This document shows, one piece after another, positions 33,647 to 60,385 of a stretch of 64,000 bases of DNA; position 1 is the stretch's first letter; every line of letters starts with the position of its first letter. The notes under the pieces were generated by a model, which saw only the letters and a list, made by a program, of their open reading frames with translations, did not search any database and was not told the DNA's origin. Position numbers and translations under genes: made by a program. Source of the DNA: Oribacterium parvum ACB1 (GTDB lineage: Bacteria > Bacillota > Clostridia > Lachnospirales > Lachnospiraceae); contig NZ_KE148312.1 of NCBI RefSeq assembly GCF_000238055.2, positions 1,174,501 through 1,238,500 on the forward strand, read 5' to 3'.

Positions 33647-35362
33647 ATGCCAACGAAAGAAGCTAAGATGTCCCATAATACGGAAAGAGATATTCTGGTC
33701 ACAGGCCATCGCAATCCGGATACGGATTCTATCTGTGCCGCCATTTCCTATGCCCGTTTTAAAAATAAATACAATAAAACGAATCACTATATCCCCTGCA
33801 GGGCAGGTAGCTTGAATGCGGAGACAAGCTTTGTCCTTGATTATTTTAAGGAAGAAAAGCCGCGCCTCTTGGAGAGTGTCAAAACACAGGTTTCGGACGT
33901 GGCTTATCGGAAAACCCCGGGTGTCCCGAAAAATATGTCCTTAAAACAGGCCTACCAGATTATGCGGGACAGTCATGTGGTAACTCTTCCTGCGGTGACG
34001 AAGCAAGGAATATTAGAGGGGCTGATTACAATTTCGGATATCGCAAAATCCTATATGAATGTCTATGATTCCGCTATCATTTCTACGGCGAAGACACAGT
34101 ATAAGAATATTTTAGAAACCCTGGAGGCAACCCGGATTACGGGAGATATTGAACGCTTCTGCCAAAAGGGAAAGGTCGTGATTGCGGCAGCCAATCCGGA
34201 GATGATGAATTACTATATTGAACCGCATGATATTGTAATCCTCGGAAACCGAGCGGAAAGTCAGCTCTCCGCTTTAGATAACGGTGCGGACTGCATCATT
34301 ATCTGTGAAGGAGCAAATGCCTCTCCGACCATCCGTGACCTTGCCGAGCAAAACGGCATGATCATCATGGTAACTTCTTATGATGCCTATACGGCGGCAC
34401 GCCTCATCAATCAATCTATCCCGATTGACTTCTTCATGACGAAGGAAGGAATCCTGAGTTTTCAGGAAGAAGACTATGTAGATGATATCCGGGAAGTTAT
34501 GGCGAGTAAAAGGCATAGAGACTTCCCGGTCTTAAGTAAGGAAGGAAAATACCTCGGGATGATTTCCCGTAGAAACCTGATGGGTGCCCATGGAAAACAG
34601 GTTATTATGGTAGACCATAACGAACTCGGGCAAGCGTTGGAAGGGATGGAAAATGCAGAGATTCTGGAGATTATCGACCATCACCGGCTGGGAACCATAC
34701 AGACTCTTTCTCCTGTCAGCTTCCGAAATCAGCCCTTGGGCTGCTGCAGCACCATTATTTACAAAATCTATCAGGAAAATGGAGTGAAGGTGGATAAGAA
34801 AACGGCAGGGCTTCTGATGTCCGCCATCATTTCCGATACTCTGCTCTTTCGTTCCCCTACCTGTACACCCGAAGATGAGAAGGCTGCACGGGAGCTTGCA
34901 AAAATTGCGGGCGTCGATATTGAGGCTTATGCAATGGAAATGTTTGCAGCAGGCTCCAATTTAAAACAAAAGACAGATAAAGAAATCTTTTATCAGGACT
35001 TTAAGATTTTTACCGCAGGGAAGATTCGTTTCGGTGTGAGCCAGGTCACTTCTCTAAATGAAGAAGAGCTGGACGGTTTAAAAGAGAGACTATTGCATTT
35101 TGCGAAGAGCGCTCTGGAAAAAGAGAATTTGAACATGGCCTTTGTGATGCTTACGAATATTCTTCGTCAGGATACGATTCTTCTTGCAGTAGGTCCCCGT
35201 TCCGGAGAGCTGATCAATATGGCCTTCTCCCTGGAGAGCGAAAAGGTGGTCTATACGCTTCACGGGGAGAGCGTAGAAGGTTATTCCGCACGAATTCCCG
35301 AGCTGGTTTCCAGAAAGAAACAGCTGATTCCGCCCCTTTCTCTTTTTGCGGAACAGTTATAA
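33647..35362 (+). CDS. CBS/DRTGG-regulated manganese-dependent inorganic pyrophosphatase
   Basis: 571 residues. The DHH catalytic domain is split: the N-terminal part has GHRNPDTDSICAAISYA near residue 17-33, and the rest resumes after about 300 with IIDHHRLG near 345. Between lie a CBS repeat near 75-130, a DRTGG-type segment near 135-245 and a second CBS near 250-310. DHHA2 forms the C-terminal end (about 420-571). It hydrolyses pyrophosphate with Mn or Co; in the CBS-PPase family AMP and ADP inhibit, ATP activates and DRTGG-containing members also bind diadenosine polyphosphates. AGGAAGGA lies before the ATG. Confidence 0.94.
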   Translation: MPTKEAKMSHNTERDILVTGHRNPDTDSICAAISYARFKNKYNKTNHYIPCRAGSLNAETSFVLDYFKEEKPRLLESVKTQVSDVAYRKTPGVPKNMSLKQAYQIMRDSHVVTLPAVTKQGILEGLITISDIAKSYMNVYDSAIISTAKTQYKNILETLEATRITGDIERFCQKGKVVIAAANPEMMNYYIEPHDIVILGNRAESQLSALDNGADCIIICEGANASPTIRDLAEQNGMIIMVTSYDAYTAARLINQSIPIDFFMTKEGILSFQEEDYVDDIREVMASKRHRDFPVLSKEGKYLGMISRRNLMGAHGKQVIMVDHNELGQALEGMENAEILEIIDHHRLGTIQTLSPVSFRNQPLGCCSTIIYKIYQENGVKVDKKTAGLLMSAIISDTLLFRSPTCTPEDEKAARELAKIAGVDIEAYAMEMFAAGSNLKQKTDKEIFYQDFKIFTAGKIRFGVSQVTSLNEEELDGLKERLLHFAKSALEKENLNMAFVMLTNILRQDTILLAVGPRSGELINMAFSLESEKVVYTLHGESVEGYSARIPELVSRKKQLIPPLSLFAEQL

Positions 35363-35612: not shown

Positions 35613-36110
35613 ATGAATATATGTTTAATCGGGATGCCATCCAGCGGGAAGAGCGTCCTCGGAAAGATGCTTGCGAAGAAACGAAGGATGCGATTTTTGG
35701 ATCTTGATACGCTGATTCAGGAAAATACCGGCAAGCTCTTAAGAGAGATCATCGCGGAGGAGGGCAGAGAAGGCTTTCTTCGGATAGAAGAAGAGGCGGG
35801 GGCGTCTCTTTCCGTGGAAAATACGGTCATTTCTCCGGGAGGATCCATCTGCTATGGAGAGAGGGCGATGAAGCATTTACGGGAGATTTCGAAGGTTATT
35901 TTCCTGCATGTCCCTTATGAGGAAATGGAAAAAAGAATCGGTGATCCGGTGAAGCGCGGGGTAGCGATTCCGGAAGGCTTTACGTTAAAGGATCTTTACG
36001 AAGAAAGAACGGCACTCTACCGTAAATATGCCGAATTCACACTGGAAGAAGAGAATTTATCGGCGGAAGAGTGTCTGGAGAAACTGATGCAGTACTTGGA
36101 CCGTATATAA
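35613..36110 (+). CDS. aroK: Shikimate kinase
   Basis: 165 residues. Walker A reads GMPSSGKSVLGK at 7-18. The shikimate-binding stretch is FLDLDTLIQ (DxD) near 34, then FLRIEEEAG, and SPGGSICY near 75 gives the GG motif. The LID region (RKYAEFTLEEENLS) is shorter than in E. coli AroK, and the usual arginines are partly unclear, so a related small-molecule kinase is possible. The enzyme would phosphorylate shikimate in aromatic amino acid synthesis. No other aro gene is adjacent. Confidence 0.82.
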   Translation: MNICLIGMPSSGKSVLGKMLAKKRRMRFLDLDTLIQENTGKLLREIIAEEGREGFLRIEEEAGASLSVENTVISPGGSICYGERAMKHLREISKVIFLHVPYEEMEKRIGDPVKRGVAIPEGFTLKDLYEERTALYRKYAEFTLEEENLSAEECLEKLMQYLDRI

Positions 36111-36172: not shown

Positions 36173-38959
36173 ATGGAAAATATTGTAATCGGGCTTTTAG
36201 CCCATGTCGATCGGGGAAAGACCAGTCTTTCGGAGAGCCTTCTCTTTGAAAGCGGGCAGATTTCAAAGAAGGGTCGTGTAGATCATGGAGACAGCCATCT
36301 GGACCATGATGAGCTGGAGCGAAAAAAAGGGATAACCATTTATGCAAAGAGTGTTTATTTTTCAAGGGGAAATAAGCGCTTTTTTCTTTTGGATACTCCC
36401 GGGCACAGAGAGTTTTCCGGAGAAATGGAGCGTGCTCTGCAGGTTCTAGACTATGGGATACTCCTTTTGGACGCGAAGGAAGGGATAGGAAAGAGGGAAA
36501 AGGAGCTTTGGACACTTGCGAAGGAGGCAGGGCTTCCACTCTTTTTCTTTGTCAACAAAATGGATCTTTTCCACGGGGATAAAAAAGACTTGCTGGAGGA
36601 CTTGAAAAGGAATTTCCCGGAGGAAAATATCCTGGATTTCCATTTATTTCAAAGAGAGTTGTTTCAAGATGATTTGTCTAGAGGTGAATTATTCCAAAAG
36701 GGTTCCTTTCAAAATGATTCCTTTCAAAATGATTCCTTTCAAAATGATTCCTTTCAAAATGATTTTCCGGAAAAGAATCCGGCGCAATGTGATTTTCTTG
36801 AGTCTATTGCCCTTTCCAATCTGGAAAGCACGGAAGAGTATCTGGAAACAGGGAGTCTTAGGCTTTCGACGGTAGTGGAGTCTATAGAGAAGAGACAACT
36901 GATGCCGCTTTTTTTTGGCTCTGCCTTGCAACAAGAGGGGATAGGCGCATTTTTAGAGGCCCTTTCCGCGCTTACTGTGATGCGTAAAGCGGAAAAAAGA
37001 AAAGAAGAAGCAGGAGAAGATGGGACAGGGAGAGAAAGAGAGGAGAAAAGAGAGGAGAAAATTGAGGAAAAACGAGGGGTAAAGACAGTAAGAGATAAGT
37101 CCGAGAAGGCAGGCTTTATATATAAAATCACCCACGACGAAAAGGGAAGAAGAATTGCAAAAGGACGGCTCTTTAAGGGGAGTTTGGCTCTTAGAGAGGA
37201 ATGGATAGAAGGAGAGAAGCTGACGGAGCTTCGTATGGAGCAGGGAGAGCGCTATGATGAGATTTCTCTTGTTGAACCGGGTATGCTTTTTTCCTGCCCT
37301 GTGTCGGAAAAGGTCAATCAAGGATATTTTCCGGAAGAGGCCGGGAATAAGACGAAAGAAAACGGTTTTTTCAGACTGAAGCTTACGATAGAGGGAGATG
37401 ATATTCTGCGCTACGCTCGTGAGATTTCGGCCATCGCGAAGGAATTTCCGGAGTGGAAGCTGCATATCGAAGAAGAAAGCAGGACGGTCCTTTTGAACTC
37501 TCTCGGAAATCTGCAAAGAGAGCTTATGAAAAACATTTTTCAGAAAAGAACCGGGAAGGAACTGGAGTTCTCCGCGCCGGAGCTTGTGTACGGGGAAGGT
37601 CCGCGGAAAGAAGCCTACGGAAGAGCCGTCATAGAAAGTCCGGGGCATTATTTTGGAATCTTTATACGACTTTCACCTCTTTCTTATACCTTGTCCGAAA
37701 AAGAAAAAATATTGCAAAAGGAAGAAATACTGAAAAGCGAAGGAAGAAAAGCAGGAGGTCTTCTTTCTATTTCGGAAAAGAGTTCTCTAAAAAAGGACTG
37801 GATCAGTCTTTTACAAAATGAATGGGAAGACTTGGACCTAAGAGGCCCGGCTTTTTCAGGACCCTTTACTAACTATCGGATAGAGATTTTGGAGGCAGAG
37901 TGGACGGAAAGCCGTTCCTATTATATGGATTTAAAAGGAGCTCTTTGGGAGGCTCTTAACATGGCGAAGAACAATGCCGGGCTTCATCTCTATTCTCCTG
38001 TTTTTTCCTATGCGATTCGAACAGAGCAGGATACTACGGGGCAGGTTCTCCAAGAGATTGAAAGACTTTCCGGAAAGCAGGAAGAGCTTTTTATGGAAGA
38101 GGAAAAGGTCCTTCTAAAAGGAAAGATGCCGGGGGAAAGCTTGCCGGAGTTTCTCGAGATTCTGCAAAGAAGGGGAATCGATGCAGACTATCATTTTTCT
38201 CATTTTGCGGAAATGGAAGAAGAGAAGGAAAGGAAAGTTTTCATAGAACGCATGGGCGATGAGGAAGATTGGGAAGCTCTTTTCTACGGCAGAGAAGAGG
38301 CGGAATGTATCGAGAGGGGGATTTTGCCTAAGAAGAAGGAGAAGACGGGAGAGTTCATCAGCGATATAGAACTGGAAGAAATCTTCTTAAAGACCTTCGG
38401 CCCAATTCGAAACCGGGGGCAGGAAGCCTTGCTTTCCGAGCAAAAACTTGTTTTGTCGAAGGAAAAGGAAGAAAAGCAGAGAGAAGCCAGAGCACAGTAT
38501 GAAAGAAAGTGGAGTCCCGGGAAGAAGGAAATCCTTCTTGTGGACGGGTATAATTTTATGTTCGCGAAAAATGACTTAAAGGAGCTTGCGACGGAAGATC
38601 TCATGGCCGGAAGGGAAAAGGTGGTACAGCTTTTATCCGAGTATGCGGTATTTTATGACAAAGAGGTTTATCTGATTTTTGATGCCTATCATGTAAAAGG
38701 AAATCAGGGAAGCAGAAAGCAGTTTGGAAAGAACCTCGAGCTCATTTTTACAAAAGAAGGAGAATCGGCGGATTTTACACTCACAAAGCTTGCTAAGGAC
38801 TTTTCGGAAAAGGGAAGGAGGGTCAGCGTCGTGACTTCGGATCAGGCGGTACAGGTACAGGCCTTCTCCGGAAAGGGAGTCAGTCGTTATTCTTCACGGG
38901 AATTTTTCGTTATCTTAGAAGATATGCGAAAACAGATTTCGGAAATGGATTTAAGCTGA
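36173..38959 (+). CDS. EF-G/TetM-like translational GTPase fused to a YacP-type NYN domain
   Basis: 928 residues. Residues 1-260 form a translation-factor GTPase: G1 AHVDRGKTS at 10-18, the switch I region ELERKKGITI near 48, G3 DTPGHREFS near 73 and G4 VNKMDL near 128. EF-G/TetM-like domains II to V follow to about 690 (AGFIYKITHDEKGRRIAKGR, GRAVIESPGHYFGIFIRL). The last 145 residues are a YacP/Rae1-like NYN domain (ILLVDGYNFMFAKND near 790, LIFDAYHVKG, VVTSDQAVQVQ). Rae1 cleaves mRNA at ribosomes, so the fusion joins a ribosome-binding GTPase to a possible ribosome-associated nuclease. Two low-complexity inserts occur, one made of four SFQND repeats. Sequence alone does not support tetracycline resistance. 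Confidence 0.85.
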   Translation: MENIVIGLLAHVDRGKTSLSESLLFESGQISKKGRVDHGDSHLDHDELERKKGITIYAKSVYFSRGNKRFFLLDTPGHREFSGEMERALQVLDYGILLLDAKEGIGKREKELWTLAKEAGLPLFFFVNKMDLFHGDKKDLLEDLKRNFPEENILDFHLFQRELFQDDLSRGELFQKGSFQNDSFQNDSFQNDSFQNDFPEKNPAQCDFLESIALSNLESTEEYLETGSLRLSTVVESIEKRQLMPLFFGSALQQEGIGAFLEALSALTVMRKAEKRKEEAGEDGTGREREEKREEKIEEKRGVKTVRDKSEKAGFIYKITHDEKGRRIAKGRLFKGSLALREEWIEGEKLTELRMEQGERYDEISLVEPGMLFSCPVSEKVNQGYFPEEAGNKTKENGFFRLKLTIEGDDILRYAREISAIAKEFPEWKLHIEEESRTVLLNSLGNLQRELMKNIFQKRTGKELEFSAPELVYGEGPRKEAYGRAVIESPGHYFGIFIRLSPLSYTLSEKEKILQKEEILKSEGRKAGGLLSISEKSSLKKDWISLLQNEWEDLDLRGPAFSGPFTNYRIEILEAEWTESRSYYMDLKGALWEALNMAKNNAGLHLYSPVFSYAIRTEQDTTGQVLQEIERLSGKQEELFMEEEKVLLKGKMPGESLPEFLEILQRRGIDADYHFSHFAEMEEEKERKVFIERMGDEEDWEALFYGREEAECIERGILPKKKEKTGEFISDIELEEIFLKTFGPIRNRGQEALLSEQKLVLSKEKEEKQREARAQYERKWSPGKKEILLVDGYNFMFAKNDLKELATEDLMAGREKVVQLLSEYAVFYDKEVYLIFDAYHVKGNQGSRKQFGKNLELIFTKEGESADFTLTKLAKDFSEKGRRVSVVTSDQAVQVQAFSGKGVSRYSSREFFVILEDMRKQISEMDLS
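36704..36763 (+). repeat. Four perfect 15-bp tandem repeats inside the GTPase gene
   Basis: The unit TCCTTTCAAAATGAT occurs four times in tandem and codes for SFQND repeats. The flanks keep looser copies (FQDD, FQKG). Being a multiple of three bases, copy-number change would keep the reading frame. Confidence 0.95.
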
Positions 38960-54837: not shown

Positions 54838-57360
54838 TTATCTACTGCTTCTCTTTTTTCTCCCTGCAAAGAGGCTTGTGCAGAAGCCAAGGCCTGCCAT
54901 AGCAAAGAGCGCAAGGTTCATCCAGATGTTTCTTGAATCCTCTGTTTTGGTATAACCGCGACCTACGCCTAAAACGGCAGGTCTTTCTGCGCCGAGAACA
55001 TTTCCTTCCGGCGTACGAACAGCGGCAAGAACTTCTCCAGGATGCTCTGAAGGAGGTGTCGGAGGATTCGGTGTATTGCCACCGCCACCAGGATTATTCG
55101 GTGTGTTTCCGCCGCCGCCCGGAGTTCTCGGATTATTTCCGCCACCGCCCGGAGTTACAGGAGGAATCTCCGAAGGAGTGCTCGGTGTCGTCGGAGTCGG
55201 AGGAATCTCTGAAGGAGTACTCGGAGTAGTCGGTGTCGGAGGAATCTCCGAAGGAGTGGCCGGTGTCGGAGGTGTCGGAGGAATCTCCGAAGGAGTAGCC
55301 GGTGTCGGAGGTGTCGGGGGAACGGTAGGCTTCTGTGAATTTGTAACAGTGAATCCATTTGCTGCATCCCCTGCAATTCCTACAGTAAAACCTTCTACCG
55401 TAACTTCTTCAATACCATAGTTAATAGCTCTTCCCTGCGCATCTTCTTTTGGAAGATTGGAGAAGGATGCCTTCCAGTTGTTTGTTGCGGATAATACAAG
55501 CTTTTGATCAGGATCCTTTACTCCGTTCTTTTTAAGGTAAACTTCAATTGTTGCCGGAATTGTAGCGGGATTTGCCGCATCTACAATCCATTGCTTTTCT
55601 ACGGAGAAAGCTACGGTTTCCTTCTGTGGATCTTCCTTCTTTTTGTTGGTAACTTTTACAACAAAGGTTTTATTAACATTATCGGGGTTCGTCAAATCAT
55701 CTGTAGTAATAGAGATAGGACCGGCATTCAAAATATCATAGCCATCCGGAGCTTTAGTCTCCTCCAATTCATAGTCTGCATAGAGAAGACCATCGAAGTT
55801 TATGATACCATTATCATCCGTTTTCGCAGTTTTGGTATAGCTACTTCCCTTTTTCTTAAGGGTGAATTCCGCATCTTTTAAAGGCTGTCCGGGAACGCTG
55901 TCATCCGTTTTTTTAATCTGAATGGTATAAGTGTTTAATCCGTTTAAAATACCACCCTCGATATTCACGAAGGAATCTCTGACTTTTAAGTCGTGCTTAA
56001 TATTGGAGTCCCCCACAAGCTTTGCCTGATTGTTGTATGCTGTTGTCTTTGGCGTATCATTAATTTCTGCGTAGTAAACAAAGGTATAGCCGTCTCTTGG
56101 ATTTAAATCTCCAATAGTATACGTAAAACTTTTTCCGTCTTCTGCATATGTCGGATTCCAAGGATTGGGTTCAGCGTCTTCATTGGGATTATCCGGCTTT
56201 CTAAGCTTCCATGAACTTCCTCTATCCGGACTGTTCTCATCATCGGTTGTTGCATTTTCCCATTTATTGTTTACCCAGTTTACGGAATACCAGTTTCCCT
56301 TTTGCATTGTGGGAGAATAGGTTTTTATATCACTTTCTGTTAAATCGCTCTTAGTTGGATCAAAGTAACTCAGTTCAGGAGAGATTAATTGATCCACCAA
56401 TTTAACATTTTTTAAATTACCGGCTCCTGCTACTCTTATTACATTTCGTTCATCAATAGTAATCTTATACTGAATTAAGTAATGCGTAATTCCTTTTTTG
56501 TCGGTGACCAGGAACATCTTTCTATCTGAGGCTTTCCAGAAACTAACCGGGTTGTCCCTGTTCGTTACCTCATAGTTTACCGTATGGTTAATTTCCGTTT
56601 TGTTGTTTACGGTAATCTGTAAGGGGGCATTTTTTGTCGATTCTTTGAGAACGGATTTATCTATACTTGCAGCAAAGTATACATTTCCGGAAGTTGCGGT
56701 ATAGTTTTCAACTTCCTTAGTAAAGGTAATCTTAATCTCCTTACTTCCCGCATCATAGATTCCCTCTGCCAAGGTGATGGACTTACCTGTATCATCCTTA
56801 CCGGGGATAGAGAACTTACTGCTTTCAGACTTTAAAACATCCGGAAGTTTAATCAGAATGTAATCGTCTTTCTTTACATTCTTTGAAGAATCAATATGGA
56901 TGTCCGCTTTAAATTGCAGACTCTGGTAGCTTGTAATAGTGGTTCCGTCTTGTACATCTGCATTATCAACTGTCAATTTGTAATTGGACAAAACTCCATC
57001 GATTGCCTTAGGTGCACCGGCAACTTCCGTTGCTGATGCAGCGATTAAAGCATTCAAATCTTCTTCGCTGAAGTTCTTGCTCAGCTCCTCAAGCATGGCT
57101 AAATCATCGAAGCCATCTTCGTCATTAGCCTCATTCGCTTCTTCTGCAACTCTGTTTGTTTCTTCCTTACTACCGTTTTCAGTGAGCTCTACATTTGGAG
57201 CTTCCTCGCGCTTTTCCTCCGTAGAGGAAGCGATTTCTACTGCTTCGTTTTCAAGGTTTATCCCATCTTGATTGCTTCCTGCAGCATTGGCAAAGGAGAA
57301 TCCCTGCCAAACCATCACAAGTGCAAGCAAAAGGGACAAAATCTGTCTCTTTGCTTTCAT
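54838..57360 (-). CDS. Cna/SpaA-type surface adhesin, paralogue 1
   Basis: 840 residues. The signal peptide MKAKRQILSLLLALVMVWQG (ending ANA, about residue 26) is the same as in the next gene. A charged region to about 110 precedes an SdrC/collagen-binding-like Ig pair at about 120-480 (LTVDNADVQDGTTITSYQSL). A SpaA-like domain follows near 485-570 (FTLKKKGSSYTKTAKTDDNG, YELEETKAPDGYDI), then a Cna-B domain near 590-690 (FSVEKQWIVDAANPATIP). A stalk of SEIPPTPPTPATP repeats and Gly/Pro-rich GGGG blocks leads to VLGVGRGYTKTEDSRN and a membrane segment with a basic end (GRKKRSSR). There is no LPXTG. The class B sortase at 24785 is a possible partner, by inference only. Confidence 0.88.
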   Translation of the reverse strand: MKAKRQILSLLLALVMVWQGFSFANAAGSNQDGINLENEAVEIASSTEEKREEAPNVELTENGSKEETNRVAEEANEANDEDGFDDLAMLEELSKNFSEEDLNALIAASATEVAGAPKAIDGVLSNYKLTVDNADVQDGTTITSYQSLQFKADIHIDSSKNVKKDDYILIKLPDVLKSESSKFSIPGKDDTGKSITLAEGIYDAGSKEIKITFTKEVENYTATSGNVYFAASIDKSVLKESTKNAPLQITVNNKTEINHTVNYEVTNRDNPVSFWKASDRKMFLVTDKKGITHYLIQYKITIDERNVIRVAGAGNLKNVKLVDQLISPELSYFDPTKSDLTESDIKTYSPTMQKGNWYSVNWVNNKWENATTDDENSPDRGSSWKLRKPDNPNEDAEPNPWNPTYAEDGKSFTYTIGDLNPRDGYTFVYYAEINDTPKTTAYNNQAKLVGDSNIKHDLKVRDSFVNIEGGILNGLNTYTIQIKKTDDSVPGQPLKDAEFTLKKKGSSYTKTAKTDDNGIINFDGLLYADYELEETKAPDGYDILNAGPISITTDDLTNPDNVNKTFVVKVTNKKKEDPQKETVAFSVEKQWIVDAANPATIPATIEVYLKKNGVKDPDQKLVLSATNNWKASFSNLPKEDAQGRAINYGIEEVTVEGFTVGIAGDAANGFTVTNSQKPTVPPTPPTPATPSEIPPTPPTPATPSEIPPTPTTPSTPSEIPPTPTTPSTPSEIPPVTPGGGGNNPRTPGGGGNTPNNPGGGGNTPNPPTPPSEHPGEVLAAVRTPEGNVLGAERPAVLGVGRGYTKTEDSRNIWMNLALFAMAGLGFCTSLFAGRKKRSSR
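55160..55315 (-). repeat. Four 39-bp tandem repeats coding a proline-rich stalk
   Basis: Units start at 55160, 55199, 55238 and 55277 and are exactly 39 bp, coding 13 residues of the SEIPPTPPTPATP type. Units differ by a few bases. In-frame change in copy number would alter stalk length. Confidence 0.93.
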
Positions 57361-57416
57361 AATCTTCTTCTCCTTATTCTTTCTTAATGAAACATTAATA
57401 AATTCTTATCGAACAC

Positions 57417-57444
57417 ACTTTACCATATAGAAAAAAGATTTCAA
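57417..57444 (-). promoter_or_regulatory. Promoter of adhesin paralogue 1
   Basis: On the minus strand TTGAAA, 16 bases, then TAAAGT. The spacer ends CTATATGG, as in the promoter of the second adhesin gene (60435-60462). The 28-bp shared layout suggests common control. Confidence 0.65.
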
Positions 57445-57712
57445 GAGATTAAAATAAATATATGGAAGTGCTTGAGTCAAAATATTAATAAAATATAAAT
57501 AAAAAATTGAAATTTTTCTTCATAATTGTATTATTTGTACAATTAATTTCATTAATAAAAAAATAATTGTCTATTTTGTGAAAAAATATCCTTCCTGCCG
57601 TAAAGATTCCTTAAAACTATAAATTTTTTTTTTGGATAGAAAGTTTTTTGAATAGAGAATTGAAACCTTTAAACTTGTTCAGAATAGGGAAGAAGAGAAG
57701 TTGCAAAAAAAA
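57445..57712. other. AT-rich intergenic region between the two adhesin genes
   Basis: The 463-bp gap between the adhesin genes holds the promoter at 57417-57444, this very AT-rich stretch of about 270 bp and the terminator at 57713-57760. I see no reading frame, RNA gene or clear repeat in the AT-rich part. Confidence 0.6.
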
Positions 57713-57762
57713 ACCGACCTCCAATTGTTAGAATTTTAGGTCTAACTTTTGGGGGTCGGTAC
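57713..57762 (-). terminator. Strong terminator of adhesin paralogue 2
   Basis: Read on the minus strand, ACCGACCCCCAAAAGTTAGA pairs with TCTAACAATTGGAGGTCGGT and is followed by TTTTTTTTT. A second small hairpin (ACGGC/GCCGT) lies between it and the stop codon. Confidence 0.9.
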
Positions 57763-57823
57763 ACGGCTTATGCCGTTTCTGTCGGTTTTTTATATAGTAT
57801 TACTTGGAATGGAGATTTATCTT

Positions 57824-60385
57824 TTATCTCTTTGCTCTTTTTCTTTCATAAAGAACCGTTGCCGTAAGGCCGCAAGCTGTTAAAGCGAAGAATAAAAGGT
57901 AGATCGGCATCCGTGAAGCATCTTCCGTTTTTACAATTCCTCGTCCTGCTCCCAAAACGGAAGGGACGGTCTTGTCTACACCAAGCACAGTAGCGACTGT
58001 TTCCGGATTGCTTTCGGGATCACGATTCTTTCCCAAGACATTTCCGGGAGTGGGCTCTGTAGGAGTACCGGGTGTATTGGGACTCGGCTTCGGCGGATTT
58101 CCGCCACCGCCATTTCCTCCGCCACCGTTTCCACCGCCGTTAGGACTTGTGGGAGGAACGTCGTTTTTTGTATTGACAAAGACGTTCACATAGCCGGTAG
58201 CCGGATCGTTCTGTGTTGTTGCCGTATAGCCGGAAACATTTTCCTCGGTAACTTTGTAACGGATTTCTTTACCATTTGCATCAAGCTTTGGCATATCAAA
58301 GCTATGCTGCCAAGCGTTGCCCTCGTTTAAGGTATAAGTAGCTACCTTCTCATTGTTGGCAAAAAGCTGAACATTTAAGTGATCAGGGTGTGCTCCGCTT
58401 CCTTTCCATTTCTTTGTAACCGGGATAACAACATTTCCTCCGTTATAGTTCGTGATGGTGAATTTGTTCTCATCGGAACCGGAGATAGCGGCATTAAATC
58501 CTGCTATGTTTTCCTCGGAAACGGTGTACACGATTTCCCCTCCGTCAGCACCTTCCTTCGGAAGATTGGAGAAGGATGCCTTCCAGTCGTTTGCTGCGGA
58601 TAATTCTACCGAAAGATTATCATCCTTAACGCCGTTCTTTAAAACGAAAACCGTAACCTTATCAGGTTTGTTGGTTGCAAGAGTCGGATCTAAAACCCAT
58701 ATCTTTTCAACGGAAAAGCTTGTGCTCTTTTTCTTTACTTCCTTTTTCTTATTCAGCACTTCCACTTCCACAGTAGACCCGTTTGCGATGGAATCCTCAA
58801 AATCCTTCTTGCTGATGGTACGGGGAGTGGAATTCTTCTCGTAGCCTTTCGGAGCTTCCACCTCGGTCAAGACATAGTCGGCTTTCAAAACATTTTCCAA
58901 CTTTGCAATACCGCTATCATCGGTCACAATGGTCTTTGTATATTTAGTCTTAGGATTAACTAAAGTAAACTTTGCTCCCTGCAGAGCTTTGCCGTCATCT
59001 CCGACTTTCTTAATCTGAATATTGAAATTTTGTCCGTTTAAGAAACCGCCGGCTTCACTGACTACAAAATCTCTAAGCTTTTCTGCGGGAACAATTCCCT
59101 TACCGGTAAGCTCTGCTGAATTATTGAATTTATCGCCATTTTTAAAAGCTTCGTTAATCTCAACATAATAGCTAAGTTCATAACCGTCATCAGGAGCAAG
59201 AGTTCCTAAAGAATAGCTAAAACTTCTTCCATCTGCGGAATATTTTGGGCTATCCGCTACTGCCGGAGCATAATCATCAGGGTTCTGTCTATTTCGAAGG
59301 CTCCAACTGTTACCTCGATTGGCATCGGTGTCATCAGGGGCATTCTTCCAAGCACCATTCTGATAAGCTCCGGAACGCCAGATTCCTTTTCTAAGAACAG
59401 GAGCATACTTATCAATATCAGCCTGATTCAAGTTCAGTTTTGTAAAATGATTTTTTACATCAAAGTAAGTCAGCGCATCACTCTGCAGTGTGTCGGTAAA
59501 AACAATATTTTCATAGCTTGTAGCACCGGAGTCCTTTTTAATATTTCTCATATCCAGGGTCATTGTGTAATGGATTAAGTAATGGGTATTCCCGTCCTGG
59601 TCTACAAGCGGATAAAGTTTATAGTCGCGATCCTTATAAAAGCTTTTCGGATTTTCTTTTGTTACAATCTGATACTCTATATTGTAGTTGATGACCGTTT
59701 GTCCGTTGATTTCCATCTTAAGCGGAGCACTTGTTGTGGACGCTACCTTTTCTTGGTCAATTCTCGTATTAAAGTATACCTCTCCATCCGTACCGCTGTA
59801 GTTTTCGGCATCCTTAGTGAAGGTGATGAGGATTTCCTTGGTCGTCTCATTGTAGCTTCCTTTAGCCAGAGTTTTCCCGCCTGTTCCCGAAATGTTAAAG
59901 CTCGTGTCTGTGGACTTTAATTCCTTGGGAAGCTGGATGGAGATATAGTCGTTCTCTTTAATATTTAAGCCCCGCACCTTAATCTTTGCTTTAAATTGCA
60001 GATTCTGATAGCTGTAAAGGCTTCCGCCATTCTGCAAAGGGGTATCATTGTTTATCAAGAACTCCGGGTCGTATATAGCACCTTCAATTTGCTTGCCTGT
60101 GCTTTCTAAAGAGGTGCTTAATGCGGCTGCCATTGGGACTGTGCTGTCGCTTGCGGTATAGGCTTCCAATTCCGTGCTGAAAAGTTCCGCTTCGTTCGTA
60201 TTTTCACTTGTCGAAAGCGCTGTTTTTTCCGTGCTTTCACCGGTCGAAAGCGTTGTCTCATACGTATTTTCGCTTGCTAAAAGCGCTGTCCCGTTGCTGC
60301 TGCCTTCTGCGTTCGCAAAGGAAAACCCCTGCCAAACCATCACAAGAGCAAGCAAGAGGGACAAAATCTGTCTCTTTGCTTTCAT
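57824..60385 (-). CDS. Cna/SpaA-type surface adhesin, paralogue 2
   Basis: 853 residues. It begins with the same signal peptide as the gene at 54838 and a different Ser/Thr-rich segment (STGESTEKTALSTSENT repeats). The Ig-like part (about 110-440), the SpaA domain (FTLVNPKTKYTKTIVTDDSG near 485) and one Cna-B domain are homologous to paralogue 1, and an additional Cna-B domain (VTKKWKGSGAHPDHLNVQL near 670) is present. The stalk is short and rich in Gly/Pro. The C-terminal end has three VLG motifs, PSVLGAGRGIVKTEDASR, then a membrane segment and KRAKR. It has its own promoter and terminator, so duplication included the control region. Confidence 0.88.
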   Translation of the reverse strand: MKAKRQILSLLLALVMVWQGFSFANAEGSSNGTALLASENTYETTLSTGESTEKTALSTSENTNEAELFSTELEAYTASDSTVPMAAALSTSLESTGKQIEGAIYDPEFLINNDTPLQNGGSLYSYQNLQFKAKIKVRGLNIKENDYISIQLPKELKSTDTSFNISGTGGKTLAKGSYNETTKEILITFTKDAENYSGTDGEVYFNTRIDQEKVASTTSAPLKMEINGQTVINYNIEYQIVTKENPKSFYKDRDYKLYPLVDQDGNTHYLIHYTMTLDMRNIKKDSGATSYENIVFTDTLQSDALTYFDVKNHFTKLNLNQADIDKYAPVLRKGIWRSGAYQNGAWKNAPDDTDANRGNSWSLRNRQNPDDYAPAVADSPKYSADGRSFSYSLGTLAPDDGYELSYYVEINEAFKNGDKFNNSAELTGKGIVPAEKLRDFVVSEAGGFLNGQNFNIQIKKVGDDGKALQGAKFTLVNPKTKYTKTIVTDDSGIAKLENVLKADYVLTEVEAPKGYEKNSTPRTISKKDFEDSIANGSTVEVEVLNKKKEVKKKSTSFSVEKIWVLDPTLATNKPDKVTVFVLKNGVKDDNLSVELSAANDWKASFSNLPKEGADGGEIVYTVSEENIAGFNAAISGSDENKFTITNYNGGNVVIPVTKKWKGSGAHPDHLNVQLFANNEKVATYTLNEGNAWQHSFDMPKLDANGKEIRYKVTEENVSGYTATTQNDPATGYVNVFVNTKNDVPPTSPNGGGNGGGGNGGGGNPPKPSPNTPGTPTEPTPGNVLGKNRDPESNPETVATVLGVDKTVPSVLGAGRGIVKTEDASRMPIYLLFFALTACGLTATVLYERKRAKR

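Follow-up and report, generated by a model that had tools for sequence, protein, structure and literature searches.

What does a bacterium gain by making, as a single chain, a GTPase of the kind that works on ribosomes and a ribonuclease of the Rae1/YacP type? The question is raised by a gene of Oribacterium parvum ACB1 within the window analysed here, a stretch of 64,000 nucleotides whose relevant features are collected in Table 1. The open reading frame is a genuine GTPase-NYN fusion. Its product matches the Pfam families GTP_EFTU over residues 4-266 (E 8.5e-45) and NYN_YacP over residues 788-924 (E 4.5e-32; 111.8 bits against a cut-off of 24.6, which places it in the Rae1/YacP family), and among PDB sequences the N-terminal part corresponds to TetM and EF-G and the C-terminal part to YacP of Bacillus subtilis (5MQ8/5MQ9). 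Alignment with TetM and 63 relatives identifies G1 (AHVDRGKTS), switch I (GITI), G3 (DTPGH), G4 (NKMD) and G5 (SAL), so that all G motifs of the EF2 family are present, including the catalytic His of DTPGH. The preliminary description had proposed just such a fusion, and the motifs it quoted are present as written. The G domain also contains an in-frame tandem repeat coding for an FQNDS-type low-complexity stretch, a possible site of variable length. The nuclease shares with B. subtilis Rae1 the NYN fold and the residues D7, N10, D53, D81 and D104; the four aspartates, whose loss had been named beforehand as grounds for abandoning the nuclease reading, are thus in place. Unlike the B. subtilis protein, it lacks the C-terminal tail (the final ~30 positions of the NYN_YacP profile), W15 and E85 (Thr in its place), the latter two being kept without exception in standalone Rae1 and almost always in the fusions (E85: one gap). 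Chance read-through between two genes does not account for the frame, since the fusion is carried by all 13 good-quality Oribacterium genomes and by one clade across Clostridia.

Table 1. Positions of the fusion gene, its parts and related genes; unless a contig is named, coordinates are those of the window.
Feature	Position	Strand	Remarks
Mn-dependent inorganic pyrophosphatase gene	33647..35362	+	Conserved upstream neighbour in the genus
Shikimate-kinase-like gene	35613..36110	+	Directly upstream of the fusion; conserved neighbour in the genus
Fusion gene, Tet/EF-G-like GTPase and YacP-type NYN	36173..38959	+	Single ORF, ATG to stop, 928 aa
G domain, aa 1-270	36173..36982	+	Pfam GTP_EFTU; motif columns aligned against TetM and 63 relatives
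15-bp tandem repeat, 8.3 copies, in frame, G-domain insert	36642..36765	+	Without counterpart in aligned relatives
Domains II and III, aa 311-475 (approximate)	37103..37597	+	TetM alignment, DSSP of AlphaFold model
Domain IV, aa 476-608 (approximate)	37598..37996	+	Fold predicted; family loops EPLRHYAEVH and HxKHTxGGDFR lost
Domain V and shortened C-terminal part, aa 609-700	37997..38272	+	Family block SVFCSHGAG...YMHL missing (alignment)
Low-confidence linker, aa 701-785	38273..38527	+	Contains conserved helix DIELEEIFLKTFGP
NYN_YacP nuclease domain, aa 786-924	38528..38944	+	Pfam, PDB matches, residue alignment
TetW-type protein	G000:C1:314690-316534 (L124 4691-6610)		Above NCBIfam cut-offs

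Structure prediction, one of the checks proposed at the outset, agrees with this domain content. The AlphaFold model of the O. parvum protein, built with 20 aligned sequences (mean pLDDT 68), is matched by Foldseek to EF-G and TetM over ~700 columns and shows the five-domain EF-G fold. A canonical relative from Kandleria vitulina (mean pLDDT 82) gives the same Foldseek answer, its model matching ribosome-bound EF-G and, at 29% identity, TetM (3J9Y). Confidence falls below a pLDDT of 50 across most of residues 672-783 of the O. parvum protein; because the stretch ahead of the NYN domain is of low confidence in both models, the nuclease looks flexibly tethered, and for the same reason the domain arrangement in the model was set aside.

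The architecture is already known and widespread among gut clostridia. Clostridial ‘Tet proteins with a YacP-like NYN domain’, identical in architecture to the O. parvum fusion, were reported from ten species by Atkinson in 2015 and proposed to confer an RNase-based tetracycline resistance (PMC4342817), a proposal that predates the characterisation of Rae1. This is the only prior report found, and no experimental study of the fusion was found in the literature searched, in which subscription papers are sparsely covered. The 2015 proteins were called Tet and tied to resistance, whereas the clade described here is separate from Tet, lacks Pro509 and replaces Rae1; the O. parvum copy, moreover, is unusually altered and strongly diverged from the proteins reported then. 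The preliminary description was right about the fusion, its non-Tet status and the aspartates, and missed the 2015 report, the spread of the fusion and its replacement of Rae1, the unfused GTPases and the lost decoding-centre loop.

The gene occurs in 13 of 13 Oribacterium genomes that are at least 90% complete, as one long frame in 12 and split into two ORFs in one metagenome-assembled genome. The pyrophosphatase and shikimate-kinase-like genes lie upstream at 10 loci, those of O. parvum, of a second divergent genome (G310) and of seven further congeners, one genome entering the count twice, and because these neighbours are common to congeners the fusion is regarded as a stable chromosomal orthologue; a paralogous origin was rejected on the same identity of upstream neighbours. 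The product of the adjacent kinase gene has the shikimate-kinase fold, and its substrate is uncertain, since NCBIfam matches it best to a homoserine kinase model, at 167 bits against a cut-off of 197. Elsewhere in the window, two large proteins of surface type, encoded side by side at 54838-60385 on the minus strand, carry Big_8, SpaA and Cna_B domains.

In its hosts, the fusion takes the place of standalone Rae1. It is the only YacP in the O. parvum genome, where the cysS-mrnC-rlmB cluster is present without yacP and an unrelated gene occupies the expected place. Within the flanks retrieved, rlmB accompanies 38 of 42 standalone yacP loci versus none of 62 fused loci. Among relatives, 51 genomes bear a YacP, 34 as the fusion and 17 as the standalone gene; in the wider class draw, the GTPase is found in 117 of 291 genomes, in ~100 of these in one long frame with the NYN domain. 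The exclusivity is not absolute, four class-draw genomes having two YacP matches: in one genome both are fusions, and in three, all of one genus, the second match is not listed. At two loci, L269 (G404) and L252 (G299), the GTPase and NYN parts of the fusion gene lie in separate ORFs, through either a frameshift or a real division.

The GTPase trees place all fused GTPases in one clade (SH-aLRT 99-100) and show that the fusion arose once; the NYN tree has too few columns to resolve and does not contradict a single origin. Unfused relatives, described as ‘translation factor GTPase’ in Ligilactobacillus salivarius, Epulonipiscium and Christensenellaceae, belong to the same GTPase family, share its KHT-GGDFR loop and differ from the fusions in having no NYN domain. 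They fall outside the fused clade, with the exception of an L. salivarius plasmid protein within it, which likely lost its NYN domain later; by this topology the unfused GTPase is older than the fusion. Among 15 class-draw genomes with an unfused GTPase, nine have a separate YacP and six have none (G554, G388, G384, G414, G530 and G429), so the GTPase cannot be a nuclease carrier only. Strict co-occurrence with YacP, which would have pointed to a functional link, was not supported either (9/15, compared with ~45% of GTPase-less genomes). One genome, G469, holds two unfused copies (L261, and a second at G469:C1:1255706) and a standalone YacP.

The likeliest function, to which a probability of roughly 0.45 may be given, is a Rae1-type cleavage of mRNA on paused ribosomes in which the GTPase would dock the nuclease. 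Rae1 of B. subtilis is an endoribonuclease of the ribosomal A site (PMC6613710), and TetM acts in the A site via domain IV (PMC7456112); since published work ties relatives of each half to this site, both halves plausibly address the same place. In such a mechanism, a translational GTPase that is sister to the Tet ribosomal-protection proteins would carry a Rae1/YacP endoribonuclease on a flexible linker; the GTP-bound fusion would bind a paused ribosome and enter its A site with domain IV facing the decoding centre; there the mRNA would be cut by the NYN domain on its tether, and GTP hydrolysis would release the protein. The fusion replaces the standalone Rae1 that most other YacP-bearing Firmicutes keep beside rlmB, and the O. 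parvum copy is the positional orthologue in a fast-evolving sublineage. That the protein would couple its binding to ribosomes with the cleavage of mRNA, as suggested from the sequence at the start, remains the best reading. Several points count against it. B. subtilis Rae1, which is a standalone protein typically encoded beside rlmB, works without a GTPase carrier; the GTPase has a job without the nuclease, given the unfused forms in YacP-less genomes; and EF-G-like factors might be rivals of Rae1 for the one A site, not partners in it. In O. parvum, the low identity of domain IV to its nearest relative (31%), the lost loop and the Thr at E85 also speak against this function.

Possible, if on the unlikely side, is that the GTPase has a ribosomal task of its own, which would be to clear or reset blocked A sites much as Tet does, though for another obstacle, and that the NYN domain is a separate Rae1 activity, tethered so that the two are co-expressed and locally concentrated, with rRNA or tRNA perhaps as its target in place of mRNA. 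This division of labour fits the unfused GTPases that branch outside the fused clade, which in some cases occur in YacP-less genomes and show no clear enrichment for a separate YacP (9/15), and it fits the probable loss of the NYN domain in the L. salivarius plasmid copy; the retention of one fusion in ~100 genomes, together with the loss of standalone Rae1, suggests instead a joint function of the two halves.

The O. parvum copy is a poor representative of its family, because it has lost the decoding-centre loop that its relatives keep. It scores 357 bits against the family model (A3) and the G310 copy 345, versus about 800-1067 for other members, and both copies sit on a common stem, 4.24 substitutions per site long, inside the Oribacterium clade. 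Both are without the HxKHTxGGDFR loop and the C-terminal SVFCSHGAG...YMHL block that mark the fused clade, so that the orthology of the O. parvum copy rests on tree and synteny: it falls among the fused proteins of Oribacterium (SH-aLRT 98) on a long branch that leaves its exact place unsure, and the shared gene order supports orthology. Between O. parvum and G310, domain IV is the least conserved part (31% identity) while the G domain and NYN retain 59% and 58%; in other congeners domain IV is among the best-conserved blocks (61-64%). A hidden frameshift in the divergent middle was sought by comparing every frame of the O. parvum gene with domain IV of the relatives, which gave no match, and because the independent genome G310 diverges similarly and in frame, a frameshift or assembly error was ruled out as far as possible.

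This pattern would suit a lineage whose copy has been remodelled, with the G and NYN domains under selection, the contact with the decoding centre lost or replaced, and a mode of action unlike that of the relatives. The long shared stem, the low family score, the decay concentrated in domain IV, its recurrence in G310 and the gene neighbours that exclude a paralogue all favour it; the domain IV fold is nevertheless still predicted, the lineage consists of two sequences only, and per-domain dN/dS gives a rough sign only, synonymous sites being saturated or nearly so. As an account of the gene, remodelling is unlikely. The copies of O. parvum and G310 may contact the ribosome differently from their relatives; the O. 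parvum protein keeps all its nucleotide-binding motifs and NYN aspartates, and probably still binds GTP and cuts RNA but touches the ribosome in another way.

The 2015 proposal, of tetracycline resistance conferred by a protein with an RNase tail, is very improbable. Tet proteins are the closest characterised relatives, TetM and TetW sharing the EF-G-like five-domain GTPase (~31% profile identity to TetM), and some members carry a TetM/W/O/S family annotation. Yet the fusion family lies below every NCBIfam Tet cut-off: against the 775 bits of tet_protect, O. parvum reaches 213 and canonical members 379-429, whereas the genuine TetW-type ribosomal protection protein of the same O. parvum genome (639 aa) scores 819. 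In the trees, TetM, TetW and four other Tet-like proteins fall outside the family, which forms a clade of its own. Pro509 of TetM overlaps bound tetracycline (PMC7456112); this residue is Pro in none of the 63 relatives (K in 58, R in two, and Q, S and V), Ser in O. parvum and Gly in G310, and the tip of domain IV around it reads HxKHTxGGDFR in the family in contrast to YSPVSTPADFR in TetM and TetW. With the chromosomal locus stable across the genus, the resistance reading was rejected on score, loop residues, tree and context, in keeping with the early judgement that this is not a standard tetracycline resistance protein. The unfused L. salivarius plasmid protein (L120), annotated as TetM/W/O/S resistance, reaches 381 bits where 775 are required, and likewise lacks Pro509. 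An anti-phage or toxin-like RNase, for which the nuclease domain alone could be adduced, is exceedingly improbable: PADLOC gave no match, inheritance is vertical and near-universal in the genus, and no conserved antitoxin-like partner adjoins the gene, a mobile or defence gene being rejected on the absence of a PADLOC match and the stability of the locus.

A bolder and doubtful extension of the docking mechanism would make the protein a one-chain stall sensor, in which a non-resistance sister of the Tet GTPases, using its own HxKHTxGGDFR decoding-centre loop, would recognise a defined state of the paused ribosome and license the fused Rae1 to cut the mRNA; GTP hydrolysis would then act as a checkpoint that co-translational decay of mRNA has to pass in clostridia, and the O. 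parvum lineage would have evolved a second mode of recognition. The GTPase is a cousin of the tetracycline-resistance proteins, and the fusion is probably not a resistance gene. Because annotation often labels the family as tetracycline resistance, a housekeeping factor may be inflating the counts of resistance genes in gut metagenomes. With Rae1 joined to a translational GTPase in much of the clostridia, the recruitment of the nuclease to the right paused ribosome becomes directly testable.
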